Shown one piece after another: positions 17,747 to 33,100 of a stretch of 47,094 bases of DNA. Location of the stretch: positions 1 through 47,094 of IMG/VR virus record IMGVR_UViG_3300042894_001081; one strand, written 5' to 3'. Each line of letters opens with the position of its first letter. The first letter of the stretch is position 1. Position numbers and translations under genes: made by a program. The notes beneath the pieces were generated by a model. That model was not told where the DNA came from and did no database searches. It saw nothing but the letters and a program-made list of their open reading frames with translations. The stretch comes from a virus.

Positions 17747-17930
17747 TTACAATCCTTATTGTGCTTTTTTCATCTAATGCATACCACGCACTTTCAAGAT
17801 ATTTTGTTATGTCGGATAATGTTTCTTCTGGAAGACGCATTACCCATTCGTTAGTGTTAACATCGTGTTTAAGTGGTAATTCAACTTTTAAATTATGTCT
17901 CATTGATATTACTAATTTTTTATCTTTCAT
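17739..17930 (-). CDS. Hypothetical protein (63 aa)
   Basis: The product reads as strands LVISMRHNLKVELPL followed by an amphipathic helix LSDITKYLESAWYAL and a final strand STIRIV. No family is recognised. The ATG overlaps the stop of the upstream membrane protein gene (ATGA). Confidence 0.55.
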   Translation of the reverse strand: MKDKKLVISMRHNLKVELPLKHDVNTNEWVMRLPEETLSDITKYLESAWYALDEKSTIRIVNE

Positions 17931-22384: not shown

Positions 22385-23962
22385 TTATGATATAGCTGTA
22401 TATGAGTAAGTTAACGTTCCTTCGTTGCTTGTAAGATCGTTAGTATATGAAATAACTATTGAATTGTTGTCAATTGCTACTGTAAAATCTAATTTTATTC
22501 CATTGGCACTTGTAGCGTTGCATGTGAATTCTTCAGAAGAAGTAATACTAGGTGAATTTACATTTATTGAAATTTGTCCTTGTCTAGTGTATGCACCATT
22601 AAATGTATAATTAACTACATATGATGTTGATCTACTAACTGCTCCTGTATTGTCTCTGCTTAGAGGAAGTTTAATCAAATCTACACTGCCTGAAGATACT
22701 ACTATATCTACTACTTTTGTTGCACTAGTAAATACCGACGATCCCGAAACTTCTGGCATGTACGTTGTTGTTAAACTAGGATCAGCTAATACAACTGATC
22801 TATCAGATCGTATATCTGAGTTGTAGTTCCCAGGTTGATCAAAATAAATTTGTGGTACAATAGGAAGGGTATTAATACCGCCCACGTTAACTAAATTACA
22901 GTGTGTGATAGAGTTATTAGTTCCAACAATGCTAACAAATGCTTGTTTGGTAATTTGGTTAAATTTGTAGTTAGTTACATGATAGTTAGATGGGCCTTCA
23001 TCAGTACTAGTTAAATCTACACCTAATGCAAATCCTATAAATGCGGTTGAAATAACACCGTTGTTAAATGTAATATGTGTAGATGCGTTGCCGGCGTATA
23101 CACCGTAGTAATAGTTATTAATTATAATATTGTTAAACACAACATATTCTGCAGTAGTAGTAGATAGACTATCGATGTTAATTGCTCTATTGTCAAGTGC
23201 TTCTCCTAATGACCAATTACCAAGAATTTTAATATTTTGAAATACACTATTAGTACAGTTTGCAATATCTAATCCAATAGTTGCAACTTCAGTTGATTGT
23301 ATTGTTAGTCCTTCTACATGAATGTAACGAGGGTTAATTACTGGATATGGAGAATCGCTGTCCGTTGTACACCGAGCTGCAGTACCTAAACCAGTATATT
23401 GAATAATTGTTTTATCAACACCGGCGCCAATGATTGTTGTATAACTTGGAATAGAAAGTGTACCGTTTATTAAAAAAATGCCAGCTGGCATTTTTAACAC
23501 TACTCGTCTTTTAACACTCTCTTGTGTATTAAGAAATGATTTAATATTAAAGTTTGCAAATAGTTGAGCAATTGCACGGTTAATTGCAGCTGTATCATTT
23601 GTAGTTCCGTCTCCTTTTGCTCCAAAAGCGTATACATTTACTGTATCATCTAATATAGTTTGCAATGATCGAATAATCGGAAAGCTGCTACTTGTTCCGG
23701 TGGTTATTGTTGCATCTGTTGATTTATAAGTATGTTCTAATGATGAAATTAAGCCAGCTGATCCAGATAAAATGTCTTTAGCTGTTAATATCTTAGTGTT
23801 ACCTACAGTAGGTGCACCTTCTGATATCGAGCCGTTACCGATATACAGTTCCTGAGAATCAACTGCCCATCCTAACTCACCTGATGCTAATTGTGGGAAT
23901 CCAGGGCCGGATCTAGCCTTTCCTCTACGTATTTGAATTTTTGAAATTTGGTAAACTGCCAT
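22385..23962 (-). CDS. Beta-helix tailspike (pectate-lyase-like), 525 aa
   Basis: Residues 1-65 are a particle-attachment region (QISKIQIRRGKA, PQLASGELGWAVDSQELYIGNGS) found in marine phage tail proteins. Residues ~108-135 carry the entry motif of Pectate_lyase_3 proteins (VNVYAFGAKGDGTTNDTAAI). A right-handed beta-helix follows, with repeated short strands and Asn ladders (VFQNIKILGN, VFNNIIINNYYYG, ITFNNGVIS). The C-terminal ~120 residues are a beta-sandwich-like tip. Such spikes bind or cut surface polysaccharide. I cannot identify catalytic acids, so enzymatic activity is open. It has a late promoter and AGAGGA ribosome site. Confidence 0.85.
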   Translation of the reverse strand: MAVYQISKIQIRRGKARSGPGFPQLASGELGWAVDSQELYIGNGSISEGAPTVGNTKILTAKDILSGSAGLISSLEHTYKSTDATITTGTSSSFPIIRSLQTILDDTVNVYAFGAKGDGTTNDTAAINRAIAQLFANFNIKSFLNTQESVKRRVVLKMPAGIFLINGTLSIPSYTTIIGAGVDKTIIQYTGLGTAARCTTDSDSPYPVINPRYIHVEGLTIQSTEVATIGLDIANCTNSVFQNIKILGNWSLGEALDNRAINIDSLSTTTAEYVVFNNIIINNYYYGVYAGNASTHITFNNGVISTAFIGFALGVDLTSTDEGPSNYHVTNYKFNQITKQAFVSIVGTNNSITHCNLVNVGGINTLPIVPQIYFDQPGNYNSDIRSDRSVVLADPSLTTTYMPEVSGSSVFTSATKVVDIVVSSGSVDLIKLPLSRDNTGAVSRSTSYVVNYTFNGAYTRQGQISINVNSPSITSSEEFTCNATSANGIKLDFTVAIDNNSIVISYTNDLTSNEGTLTYSYTAIS

Positions 23963-24420: not shown

Positions 24421-24428
24421 TATTTATC
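24421..24428 (-). promoter_or_regulatory. Late promoter (GATAAATA)
   Basis: Minus-strand GATAAATAC lies 18 nt upstream of the ATG at 24402 and overlaps the end of the exonuclease gene. Confidence 0.6.
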
Positions 24429-25143
24429 AGTTCATACTGTAATACATGTCAACTCGATCCCACCATTTATCAACGTACTTGTTAAATTCAGTACCTTCTA
24501 ATATAAATTCTTGATATTGTGGTTCTCCCCATACCCACGGAGAAAGTTCGGGTGGTTTAACACACATTAGAACTACACCTTTTTGTATATTAGTTTCGTG
24601 TATCTTATTATGTGCAATAGAATATGCAGCTAGTTGAAGATAGTAATCTTCAATGTACTCACGTTTTTTAGGTTTATTAGATTGTTTATAATCAAGGATA
24701 GCAGGTTCACCTTTATGTAATCCTACAGCATCTGTAGTACCTGCATACAGTTCTGGATAGTAAAGTGCAACTTCATTACCCCAAACTTCGTTGACGTTTT
24801 TCAATCCGTGATCTATAATGTGTTGAGCCATTTTATGACTTTGCTGACTATATGGATTAGAGCCAGATTCATTTAGAAATCCTTGTGCGACAAAATCTTC
24901 CAAAAATTTATGCATACGAGTTCCGCGACTAGCAGCTTCAGTTGTAATCTGTTGTGCTTTGTCATAGCCAACAGCTTTACGCCATGCTTGTAGTGCAGCT
25001 TTATCTTCTTCTGGTTTTGTTGCTGATAGTATTGTAGTTACGGAAGGAACTTTAGATCCATCAGGGCAAGAATATAAACGCTTGCCCTTAACGGATTGTC
25101 TGTTTATTGGTGTGTATTGATATTTTTCAGTTAGTAGTTTCAT
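24427..25143 (-). CDS. PD-(D/E)XK exonuclease, RecB/MGME1-like (238 aa)
   Basis: N-terminal VPSVTTILSATKP is followed by a helical region with ASRGTRMHKFLED, the conserved upstream element of this nuclease group. Then come the catalytic strands: TTDAVG (Asp), AILDYKQSNKPKK (the D-Y-K core) and a following Tyr-Gln helix YYLQLAAYSIAHN. The order and spacing fit Cas4/RecB-type and MGME1-like single-strand DNA exonucleases. It probably works in replication or recombination in the infected cell. A frame extension to 25161 exists, but the ATG at 25143 lies exactly at the expected start of the sigma70 promoter transcript, making the mRNA leaderless. Confidence 0.85.
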   Translation of the reverse strand: MKLLTEKYQYTPINRQSVKGKRLYSCPDGSKVPSVTTILSATKPEEDKAALQAWRKAVGYDKAQQITTEAASRGTRMHKFLEDFVAQGFLNESGSNPYSQQSHKMAQHIIDHGLKNVNEVWGNEVALYYPELYAGTTDAVGLHKGEPAILDYKQSNKPKKREYIEDYYLQLAAYSIAHNKIHETNIQKGVVLMCVKPPELSPWVWGEPQYQEFILEGTEFNKYVDKWWDRVDMYYSMN

Positions 25144-25149
25144 GACATA

Positions 25150-25178
25150 ATTATAATACATTTAACTGTCAATGTCAA
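25150..25178 (-). promoter_or_regulatory. Consensus sigma70 promoter, leaderless exonuclease mRNA
   Basis: Minus strand: TTGACA (25178-25173), 17-bp spacer, TATAAT (25155-25150), then TATGTC and the ATG at 25143. Start-site rules place +1 at the A of the ATG. The -35 overlaps the stop of the frameshift extension at 25175. Confidence 0.8.
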
Positions 25179-25504
25179 TCTTTATTTTTTCTTCTGTTAA
25201 ATGCTTCTCTAGATCTTTTAGAAAAGTCACTTTCGACTTCTTTATGTTGAGTTAATGGATCCGGCATAGCTTGATTTGTTTTAATTACTAACCCTGATTC
25301 GTCATATCGATCAACAAATTGTTGTACTAATGGATCTGATTCGTATCGTTGAGTAAAACTTTCAAAGTCAATAAACGGTGCACCACCTGTTCTATCTACT
25401 CTGTTAAGAGCGTCCCAGGTAAGTGATGCACTAGTTTTATTATTGTTTGCTGCAGCTTGAATGGTCCGTAATACATTAATTAACGGATCAATCGATTCAT
25501 TTAC
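25175..25504 (-). CDS. C-terminal extension reached by probable -1 frameshift (109 codons)
   Basis: Starting at GTA AAT GAA directly after the slippery A AAA AAG, a frame stays open for 109 codons to a TGA at 25175. It reads VNESIDPLINVLRTIQ at the start and SKRSREAFNRRKNKD at the end, with strong protein-like composition (LTWDALNRVDRTGGAPFIDF). It has no usable start codon before a Met about 80 residues in, and no ribosome site. It is the -1 frame relative to the 326-aa gene, so a slip gives a ~435-aa fusion. An unreported base in the nine-A run would have the same effect and must be excluded. Confidence 0.7.
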   Translation of the reverse strand, partial: VNESIDPLINVLRTIQAAANNNKTSASLTWDALNRVDRTGGAPFIDFESFTQRYESDPLVQQFVDRYDESGLVIKTNQAMPDPLTQHKEVESDFSKRSREAFNRRKNKD

Positions 25505-26481
25505 TTTTTTTTTGAGCTTAACATCATACCTAATTTACGGCTGTATTCAACACTTTCACGTTTCATACGACCTGCATCGGGAGCTGCACCTGCTAATTCT
25601 TCAGGTGAACCAATTTGTTCTTCTCCTGGAGCTGCTCCGCCAAATTCAGGAGCAGGAGCTGCAGGAGCGCCGCCGACTACACCAATAGGAGCAGTTTCGC
25701 CAGGTACTGCTGCACCTAACATTTCGGGTTCATCACCGGTTACAACTGCTAAACCTTGGCTTAGTCCTTGACGTGAAGTTTCTAATGCTGTATAGATATT
25801 ATCCATTGCAGGTCTAACAACACTGTCGTATTTTTGAGCAGTATCACTACCGGCTACACGTTTAATGTTGTCTAACAATTCTAAAAATTGCTCAGAACGC
25901 ATTGCAGCCATATCTTCTAACCAACCTGTGATACGTTGTACAATGTCACGTGTTTGAATAATTACATCAGCTTTTGTTTCTTCGTCTTCTAACAAAATCC
26001 AGCTTGCTTGTGATTCATTTAAATCATAACGCAATTTTAATTCTGCAGACAATTCACGACGATCTGATTCACCTAATGAAATTCTGCGTATTGCACTATT
26101 AATCCATGTGTCTGGAACTGACAGTTTTTCAGCACGTTGACGTAATCTGTTTTGTGCATAGCCTTCGTCTGTTTTTTGTTTTTTCTTTTTAGGTTTGTCT
26201 TCAGATTCTACATCAACTTCATCACAGTTTTCACGTTCAAAAATTTCTTGATTTAATACATCAAGAAACATCCGTGTTTTTTGATATGTAGCATTTTCGA
26301 CAACTGAGTTATAGCTTTCATTCATTTCAAATTGGCTAATTTTAGTACGTAATTTATTACGCGCATCTTCAAGTTGTGCATCTGTAAAATTTTCTAATTT
26401 TAACGTATAACCAAAGTTTTTAGCTAAACTTTCGTTTAGTTTTGAACTGGTTAACGGTTGATTTAAATCATTAATTTGCAT
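25501..26481 (-). CDS. Conserved marine-phage protein, likely virion or head-associated (326 aa)
   Basis: N-terminal MQINDLNQPLTSSKLNES belongs to the recurring N-terminal peptide group. Residues 20-80 are helical (LEDARNKLRTKISQFEMN, YQKTRMFLDVLNQEIFERE), followed by a Lys-rich stretch (EDKPKKKKQK). A middle helical domain comes next, then a Gly/Ala/Pro-rich linker (residues ~245-310) with GAAPGEE-like repeats. The frame ends SSKKK-stop right at a slippery site. A late promoter precedes it. The domain pattern (helical N-terminal, charged linker, low-complexity C-terminal) would suit a scaffold or internal protein, but I have no direct assignment. Confidence 0.7.
   Translation of the reverse strand: MQINDLNQPLTSSKLNESLAKNFGYTLKLENFTDAQLEDARNKLRTKISQFEMNESYNSVVENATYQKTRMFLDVLNQEIFERENCDEVDVESEDKPKKKKQKTDEGYAQNRLRQRAEKLSVPDTWINSAIRRISLGESDRRELSAELKLRYDLNESQASWILLEDEETKADVIIQTRDIVQRITGWLEDMAAMRSEQFLELLDNIKRVAGSDTAQKYDSVVRPAMDNIYTALETSRQGLSQGLAVVTGDEPEMLGAAVPGETAPIGVVGGAPAAPAPEFGGAAPGEEQIGSPEELAGAAPDAGRMKRESVEYSRKLGMMLSSKKK
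25504..25512 (-). promoter_or_regulatory. Probable -1 ribosomal frameshift site (A AAA AAG)
   Basis: In the zero frame the codons read TCA AAA AAA AAG TAA, which contains the A AAA AAG heptamer of the dnaX type placed directly before the stop. The -1 frame continues for 109 codons. A weak hairpin (CCGTTAAT / ATTACGG) begins about 17 nt downstream. A sequencing error in the A-run is the alternative. Confidence 0.65.
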
Positions 26482-30743: not shown

Positions 30744-32840
30744 TTATATATGCTCTTGCCAAGTAACTACGCCTACAGCATCATCGTTATTAGTAGTAGC
30801 AATAGCAGCCAAACACCATATATCTGATACTCCGGCAATAGTGCGTCCTAGTTGTTGACTAAAGTCTACGTCATTCGAAGTAATAGAGGCTGATCCTCCT
30901 TTGTTTGATCCCACAAATATTCCTTGATCAATCACAGTTCCACCTGACAATCCGGTAGCAGAAAGGTCATACTCTACTGAACTGTCTGTTCCGGCACTGG
31001 TCCAGCTAGCAGCAGTCAATGTTGGATTTATAATTATCCGATAGACAAATGCAGCCTGTTGTAGACCAAACAGATCAAACTTAACAGGGACAACAACTGA
31101 ATCAAGATTAGCTGCTTTGAGTCTGATACATACTAGAGGTCTATATACTGTGTTGCTGAGATCCTTGCCTGTTAGACTAGTTCCAATACTTCGACTAACA
31201 CTACGATTCATGTAGCCACCTTCGGATATCACAGTTGAACATATGGCTCGCATGGTGCCCGCAGCTCCGGTGCTTGTTAGTTCATATCTAACAGGTAATG
31301 AAGCAGTAGTCATGTAAACTTTGTTAAAGCTGACTTGGTTAGCGTGATGGAATGTATGACAGAGTATAAACTGCCCATCGATAACAAATCCGCAACGAAC
31401 TGATCCTACGCCCAGCCATTCAATATCACACCAAAAAATCTGTGCTCTACTTACAACTAACGTGATGCCGCTTGGCCCGGTTCCATTAAGTTTATCACCA
31501 TTCCAATTTGCTTGAGCAAACTTTTCTGTAGTATCGTCTACAGACCCTGATGTATATTTTCTAATCACAAGATTTAATGTATTACCATCTACTTCAAAGT
31601 ATACACCGTTCTGTGCTCCAAACAATCCTACCCGCTGACGCAAGCCTGCGGTAGGTGTGGTCATAACAAAAGTAGCCAACGTCAGCAAACTCTTACCAGG
31701 CTGATAAGCAAACACTGATTTGGTTTGTCTCAAACTTTCATCGCCGTTGCCTAACACCGACATTAATACTGAACTTTCATTAGGTAGAAATACACTTGTA
31801 GCCGCACCAGTATCTACTTGATTCCATTTGAATGGGTCATCTCTGTATCGTTGAGCACCATCAAACAAAGTAAACGGATTACTAACTCGTAATCTGCCAA
31901 ACGCATCTAGATTTGCTCCACCAAACGATACAACAGGTGTACCTGTAATCGTAGCATTGACATTCCCACTAATAGGAACTGGATTGCCACTGTCATTCTT
32001 AATCTCTACTTCTGGTATTGTGCCAATGTTTACGGTAGGTGTTCCGCTAATAGTAACTGTGGTATTCTCTAACGCTGATAATGTACTAGCACCTAGTTCT
32101 ACTGTGCCACTCACAGTTGCTGATACTGTACCATCTACTGTTATGCTACCGCCGCCATCTTGAACTGTAACAGTACCAGTAACACCTACATTTTCTAATG
32201 CTGTTAATGTTGTACTACCTAACTCAACTGTACCGCTTACTATGGCATTGATGTTTTCAAGTGCTGACAAACTTCCGCTGTCTAACGTAACTGTGCCACT
32301 TACTTGTTGGGTAGTTGGGAATGTTACATTAGCTGTTACAGTTCCGCTAACTGGTTGTGTAGTTTGCCAAAATGTTCCTGTAACCGGAGTAGTTGGCATG
32401 CTTGCAATAGATACTGGTTGGGTAGTTTGCCAAAATGTTCCAGTTACTGCAATTGGATTAGTATTAGAAACATTAGCATCAACATATATACGATTATTTA
32501 CAGTGTTGTCATTACTATCTTTAGATACTTTGATTAATGTTGGAAATGCTGGGAAGTTACCTACATCGATACTAGTTGGAAATGCTGGGAAGTTACCTAC
32601 ATCAATACTAGTTGGAAATGCTGGGAAGTTACCTACATCGATATCACTTGTTAAATGAACTGGAATACTTTGTAATTCGGTGTTATTAATTTTAATTTCA
32701 GATGCAATGTTAACATTTCCAGTTACTGTAATATTATCAGATCCTAACGTAACTCGAACATGCGGAAGTTCGTCAACGAGTTCCATTGCATGATGTAAAT
32801 TATTTAAATTAGGATTTTTATTGTCGTGTTCGTACGCCAT
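30744..32840 (-). CDS. Large conserved virion protein with N-terminal repeats (698 aa)
   Basis: Residues ~70-105 are three perfect SIDVGNFPAFPT-type repeats. A Thr/Val-rich repetitive stalk follows (VTGTFWQTTQPVS twice; VSGTVELGS.TL.ALEN three times). From about residue 315 comes a conserved domain: DAFGRLRVSNPFTLFDG, YQPGKSLL, GLRQRVGLFG, NWNGDKLNGTGPSG and WCDIEWLGVGSVRCGFVIDG. This domain is very widespread in marine phage virion proteins. The ATG at 32840 overlaps the upstream stop (TAATG); a TTG extension is rejected. It is likely a fibre or appendage protein with a stalk and head. Confidence 0.8.
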   Translation of the reverse strand: MAYEHDNKNPNLNNLHHAMELVDELPHVRVTLGSDNITVTGNVNIASEIKINNTELQSIPVHLTSDIDVGNFPAFPTSIDVGNFPAFPTSIDVGNFPAFPTLIKVSKDSNDNTVNNRIYVDANVSNTNPIAVTGTFWQTTQPVSIASMPTTPVTGTFWQTTQPVSGTVTANVTFPTTQQVSGTVTLDSGSLSALENINAIVSGTVELGSTTLTALENVGVTGTVTVQDGGGSITVDGTVSATVSGTVELGASTLSALENTTVTISGTPTVNIGTIPEVEIKNDSGNPVPISGNVNATITGTPVVSFGGANLDAFGRLRVSNPFTLFDGAQRYRDDPFKWNQVDTGAATSVFLPNESSVLMSVLGNGDESLRQTKSVFAYQPGKSLLTLATFVMTTPTAGLRQRVGLFGAQNGVYFEVDGNTLNLVIRKYTSGSVDDTTEKFAQANWNGDKLNGTGPSGITLVVSRAQIFWCDIEWLGVGSVRCGFVIDGQFILCHTFHHANQVSFNKVYMTTASLPVRYELTSTGAAGTMRAICSTVISEGGYMNRSVSRSIGTSLTGKDLSNTVYRPLVCIRLKAANLDSVVVPVKFDLFGLQQAAFVYRIIINPTLTAASWTSAGTDSSVEYDLSATGLSGGTVIDQGIFVGSNKGGSASITSNDVDFSQQLGRTIAGVSDIWCLAAIATTNNDDAVGVVTWQEHI
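32539..32646. repeat. Three tandem 36-bp repeats
   Basis: Three contiguous, almost identical 36-bp units encode the 12-residue SIDVGNFPAFPT repeats of the 698-aa protein. They have no spacers and are in frame, so they are not CRISPR. Copy number may vary between strains. Confidence 0.9.
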
Positions 32841-33100
32841 TATGTAATCCAAGGACGACCTAATACTAGTCCGCCTGCATTAGGATTGTCTGTAATTCCG
32901 TCACCGTTATATTTTGTTGGTAATTGCGTAATATCATAATTGTTTCTATCACGATAGTATTGTTTAGTAGGATCTACACTTCCTGTAACTGTACCATCAG
33001 CTGCTACGATTTTACCTTGACGTTTAGCTTTTGCTAACGCAAGTTTAGCTGCTTGTTTTGCTTCTTTGGTTGATAACCATGCGATTCCGTTAGCTGACAT
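32840..33100 (-). CDS. Conserved small structural-cluster protein (86 aa)
   Basis: MSANGIAWLSTKEAKQAAKL leads to a helical, Lys/Ala-rich first half. The C terminus is sharply conserved in marine T4-like phages (LPTKYNGDGI, DNPNAGGLVLGRPW). The function is unknown to me. It is coupled at both ends by TAATG-type overlaps, between the 124-aa and 698-aa genes, so it is probably a particle protein. Confidence 0.7.
   Translation of the reverse strand: MSANGIAWLSTKEAKQAAKLALAKAKRQGKIVAADGTVTGSVDPTKQYYRDRNNYDITQLPTKYNGDGITDNPNAGGLVLGRPWIT

Follow-up and report, generated by a model that had tools for sequence, protein, structure and literature searches.

A virion-protein gene of an uncultivated giant phage probably ends in a programmed −1 ribosomal frameshift cassette, which would yield some 435-aa protein beside a 326-aa form; we give this reading, drawn from sequence comparison, a probability of about 0.85. 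Its basis is a conserved slip site, a conserved −1 coding frame, a start codon of the downstream domain's own where the site is missing, and a conserved downstream stem. From these we infer actual slippage, the ratio of long to short product and the packaging of both forms. The window, that is, the whole stretch of DNA analysed, is a 47-kb virus record (IMGVR_UViG_3300042894_001081, 47,094 nt) and probably a fragment; a close relative sits on a 372-kb contig.

Slip site and reading frames

The junction comprises the following features, given in positions of the window:

26481..25501, minus strand: frame-0 (head) gene of 326 aa with an ATG start, ending TCA AAA AAA AAG TAA
25513..25505, minus strand: nine consecutive A residues; the next base, at 25504, is G
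25510..25504, minus strand: slippery heptamer A_AAA_AAG, in frame and directly 5' of the TAA stop (25503..25501)
25504..25175, minus strand: −1 extension, 109 codons from 25504 to 25178 (GTA AAT GAA TCG ...), with TGA at 25177..25175

The heptamer fits X_XXY_YYZ in the zero frame near a zero-frame stop, as a −1 frameshift signal would. Across the extension stretch, the −1 frame contains 0 stop codons, frame 0 contains 7 and the remaining frame 19. The first methionine is residue 81 of the extension, and no ORF of at least 60 aa from ATG, GTG or TTG is listed in its frame, so the first half of the domain holds no start. A first-pass annotation had described the 326-aa gene with this ending and a 109-codon open −1 frame without a usable start, and had put the slipped product at ~435 aa; coordinates and reading were right, the ORF listing and stop counts bear out the open frame, and 326 + 109 gives the predicted length. 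Automatic annotation of these genomes can easily overlook the extension, as it has no start codon.

Throughout the window, one other canonical heptamer has at least 60 codons upstream, a stop within 20 codons and at least 30 open −1 codons. This is TTTTTTA at 17916 (plus strand), with a −1 frame open for 40 codons, and it looks like chance.

Conservation of the slip site and the −1 frame

We compared 130 distinct related junctions from IMG/VR, gathered mostly by similarity of the head protein and not by the slippery site. A_AAA_AA followed by G, A or C was found in the head frame, 0–3 codons from the head stop, in 121 of them (AAAAAAG 106, AAAAAAA 14, AAAAAAC 1). In 119/130 the heptamer was present and the downstream domain, the same one each time, lay in the −1 frame with no stop across the junction; most of the homologues, which the first-pass annotation had proposed to inspect, keep both the A-run and the −1 frame.

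Compared with its counterpart in the nearest relative (L012), the window's extension has dN 0.020 and dS 0.295 (dN/dS about 0.07), its 22 substitutions falling 5/1/16 at codon positions 1/2/3, and dN/dS in other pairs ranges from 0.05 to 0.31. Judged by these substitution patterns across relatives, the open −1 frame is evolving as a protein, under purifying selection.

Downstream RNA structure

Across 84 diverse loci, the 60-nt interval of RNA beginning 5 nt after the slip (+5 to +65) folds much more stably than synonymous-codon shuffles of it (mean z −2.37), with z about 0 upstream of the slip and beyond +100 in the same test. The hairpin of the main freshwater group, GUAGACCCCUUAGU-loop-ACUAAGGGCUCUAC, lies 10–15 nt after the heptamer. 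It keeps 76% of pair cells, versus 28–48% in slid versions, and has 12 two-sided compensatory cells and a covariation score reached by 0/500 shuffles. RNAalifold recovered no shared structure whatever from 37 sequences covering +1 to +60, probably because the window's clade and other divergent members are without the exact stem; after this null result the named hairpin was counted across sequences instead. In the marine clade with A6 runs (L149–L160), a nested stem, ACUGAG...CUCAGU, is predicted immediately behind the slip; it differs from the freshwater hairpin.

Two stems are predicted in the window:

25459..25493, minus strand: predicted RNA stem-loop spanning +11 to +45 from the slip, a candidate 3' stimulator; weak here, strong in relatives
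25378..25431, minus strand: a further RNA stem, predicted at +73 to +126, longer than the first and shared with the nearest relative, L012

The near stem has −9.2 kcal/mol (z −0.88), 130 nt give z −1.98, and the near relatives L014 and L028 have no excess stability downstream of the slip. With a weak near stem and a longer one at +73 to +126, the stimulator in the window genome is uncertain: downstream structure is present for the family and weak in the window alone. The conserved stem nonetheless adds evidence beyond the argument of the first-pass annotation. A Shine-Dalgarno stimulator upstream was considered and rejected, as none lies at dnaX spacing (about 10 nt before the site); an AGG at −18/−21 is there because of a conserved Leu-Gly codon pair.

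Proposed ribosomal slippage and its alternatives

Bacterial RNA polymerase slips on runs of about nine A residues. The A-run is A9–A11 in 80 of the 84 diverse loci, beyond what a ribosomal heptamer needs, even though AAG makes up a third of lysine codons in head genes, so something favours the long run. Ribosome and polymerase slippage might each add to the product in the A9–A11 lineages, a reading that refines and overlaps the frameshift explanation; a long run kept beyond the heptamer, together with the conserved downstream stem, is consistent with it, but stronger ribosomal slipping on AAA AAA AAG would explain the long run as well, and we regard this combination as unlikely, if worth bearing in mind. 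Transcriptional slippage alone, in which polymerase would add one A in A9 or A10 so that some transcripts would carry the 435-aa protein in a plain frame, would likewise account for long runs being retained where AAG is available for lysine. It becomes improbable in view of the A6 clade (L149–L152, L155–L157, L159 and L160; for example, GGA AAA AAG TCG TAA), whose A6G runs are too short for efficient polymerase slippage and yet keep site, phase and extension. Moreover, the run always ends in a codon fitting X_XXY_YYZ in the zero frame, and polymerase needs no mRNA stem 3' of the site, yet the stem is present. The peptide expected from ribosomal and from polymerase slippage is identical. Since the minimal heptamer of the A6 clade favours the ribosome, ribosomal slippage would have the main role, and polymerase slippage on A9 may contribute.

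A different possibility is that two separate proteins are made, the downstream frame being translated alone by re-initiation after the head stop. Cultivated relatives do use an ATG of their own for this frame, and so do 9 of the 130 metagenomic junctions. These nine are the ones without the heptamer. In 9/9 the downstream domain has its own ATG, in whichever frame, at a distance of 8–15 nt counted from the first base of the head stop, and several of these starts have an AAGG-like ribosome site. Among the 119 slippery junctions, however, an ATG near the junction is rare in the −1 frame: 18 contain one between −60 and +75, and the window lacks one. For that frame no ribosome site was seen, and re-initiation would leave conservation of the heptamer without a reason. 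We therefore consider it very improbable there. The presence of the slip site pairs with the absence of a start. Relatives with their own start and no slippery site, which the first-pass annotation had named as evidence against its reading, do exist; as they are a minority and exactly those lacking the heptamer, they act as a natural control that supports a role for the heptamer. Two junctions (L165 and L174) have the heptamer in a Lys/Arg-rich head end, yet have their own ATG too. Taken together, the conserved site, the −1 coding frame and the own-start control support the earlier proposal of a probable programmed −1 frameshift.

Independent assemblies whose head proteins are 25–91% identical have runs of A9G, A10, A8G, A11 and A6G, and the phase always needs a −1 shift. 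Homopolymers are prone to errors, but a true plain 435-aa gene with ten A residues is scarcely credible when the same phase recurs in all of about 100 distinct and diverged junctions, whose runs range from A6 to A11, A6 runs are not error-prone and the stop codon is kept right after the site. The homopolymer doubt raised in the first-pass annotation was thus settled by comparing assemblies and by the purifying selection on the downstream frame; comparison with relatives rules out sequencing error as the source of the −1 phase.

Under the frameshift reading, most ribosomes would stop at TAA and release the 326-aa protein. Pausing at A_AAA_AAG would be caused by the stop codon next to it and, for most family members, also by the downstream stem-loop; on some ribosomes tRNA-Lys would re-pair one base back, and translation would continue for 109 codons to give a 435-aa product with a C-terminal winged-helix domain. 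Both forms would probably be built into the virion, in a ratio set by slip frequency, and would replace two separately translated virion proteins of cultivated relatives.

Identity of the two protein parts

The head protein is predicted to be all-alpha (mean pLDDT 82). It matches phrog_14154, the virion structural protein CBB_298/GAP32_293 (hhalign 96%, E 6e-9), and is also homologous to Atu_ph07 and Phosso proteins and to a protein of Salicola phage SCTP-2; Pfam gave no match for either the head part or the extension. In virion mass spectrometry of CBB, CBB_298 was represented by 10 unique peptides and CBB_299 by 2 (PMC5259590 Table 4). With both CBB proteins in virions, the head part and the extension are most likely virion components.

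The model of the extension has a core with pLDDT 77–89, the element order H-E-H-H-H-E-E and a disordered tail. Many of its best PDB matches are winged helices, each individually weak, and a winged-helix fold is predicted for the extension; DNA binding by it is weakly supported. Between the head and exonuclease genes of GAP32, CBB, XbC2, XaC1, RaK2, 121Q and a Vibrio phage lies a gene for 107–118 aa with its own start and no slippery A-run. The profile of this protein gives a collinear but weak match to the extension (hhalign 25%, E 8e-4), which occupies the position of CBB_299/GAP32_294. A PHROG search gave no match of the extension to phrog_15050, and the profile of the extension (tail) had no hit in the genomes of SCTP-2, GAP32 or Phosso, which keeps the link to GAP32_294 at probable: by synteny, similar predicted topology and the weak collinear profile match, the extension is probably a homologue of CBB_299/GAP32_294. 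Searching 50,697 phage records by tblastn with the extension and with an own-start tail (L168) gave no match, and thus no isolate with the frameshift form was found; no relative was found among bacterial and archaeal genome contigs.

Genome context and evolution

The gene order of the window (virion protein, RecB-like exonuclease, then large and small ribonucleotide reductase subunits with a homing endonuclease between them) agrees with that of the jumbo phages GAP32, CBB, XbC2 and XaC1. Synteny with CBB, GAP32 and RaK2 (head - tail - exonuclease) is fixed by one gene:

24427..25161, minus strand: PD-(D/E)XK exonuclease gene

A consensus-like promoter, TTGACA-N17-TATAAT (25148–25180), overlaps the −1 frame stop and precedes the exonuclease gene, and several relatives (L012, L017 and L028) have a similar TTGACA...TATAAT in the corresponding position. 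Elsewhere, the window encodes a 525-aa protein (22385–23962) that has a pectate-lyase-like domain and, just below the Pfam cut-off, matches the N-terminal domain of the major tropism determinant. It also encodes a 702-aa virion protein (30744–32852) whose C-terminal 400 aa match phrog_1645, and also cyanophage structural proteins, at ~46% identity, a link unexpected in a RaK2/CBB-like jumbo phage.

The family is a large one of uncultivated giant freshwater and marine phages, a clade related to RaK2/CBB. In the head-protein tree, the frameshift form spans the metagenomic clade and occurs throughout the window's own part of it, and own-start forms are nested elsewhere within the metagenomic clade; parsimony needs four label changes in total, including the cultivated outgroup, two of them forced by starred branches. 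At one junction (L166, 3981–4469), the −1 frame entered from A_AAA_AAG is unrelated and 163 codons long, and behind it stands the winged-helix gene, which has its own ATG. This is an apparent domain replacement at the slip site, and a different −1 domain behind it suggests that the site can be re-used. Tentatively, and at somewhat less than even odds, the slip site could both set, like a dial, the stoichiometry of a DNA-binding winged-helix virion protein and serve as a point at which C-terminal domains are swapped, with lineages alternating between fusion and two genes.

Comparison with known systems

The closest counterparts are CBB_298/CBB_299, GAP32_293/294 and RaK2 ORF135/136 (phrog_14154/phrog_15050), which have the same head - tail - RecB-like exonuclease order and a homologous head. 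Each cultivated phage that was checked gives the tail gene its own start and lacks the slippery site, whereas the window's clade joins both parts by what we read as a frameshift.

Lambda gpG/gpGT is alike in having a conserved −1 frameshift in tailed phages with two products, which here are predicted. The present gene, however, is not among tail genes before a tape measure, no sequence relation to gpG/gpGT was seen, and orthologues of the present proteins occur in mature virions, unlike assembly chaperones. A tail assembly chaperone is ruled out by the neighbouring exonuclease and ribonucleotide reductase genes and by the CBB orthologues in virions.

In T7/T3 gene 10A/10B, A2 and A118, a −1 frameshift near the 3' end of the coat gene extends some copies (PMC5009743). 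The common logic proposed here is a C-terminal domain on some copies of a virion protein, but the frame-0 protein is not the major capsid protein, and the fold predicted for the extension is a winged helix instead of an Ig-like domain. A major capsid C-terminal extension of the T7 10B type is ruled out because the orthologue is CBB_298, whereas the major head protein of CBB is CBB_257 (PMC5259590).

The slippery heptamer is that of E. coli dnaX, where A_AAA_AAG is read by tRNA-Lys and a stem-loop also lies 3' of the site (PMC5009743). There, the shift gives the shorter product; here, the longer product would come from it and the zero-frame stop follows the heptamer immediately, an arrangement suggested for a few other bacterial dnaX genes (PMC5009743). 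Because the upstream Shine-Dalgarno stimulator of E. coli dnaX has no equivalent at that distance, we call the junction dnaX-like at the heptamer and do not file it as a dnaX-type cassette.

The first-pass annotation knew of no report of frameshifting in this family; likewise, we found none in the titles and abstracts listed from the open-licence literature, and the PRFect paper does not mention jumbo phages. The dnaX heptamer, the 10B-like logic and the lack of a family report together describe a known mechanism in a new gene family, with strong conservation and predicted expression. This is apparently a large, unreported frameshift family in virion proteins, outside tail chaperones and coat proteins, the classes in which phages are known to frameshift, and the natural presence and absence of the signal within it makes the purpose of a fixed long-to-short ratio, as against two genes, open to test.
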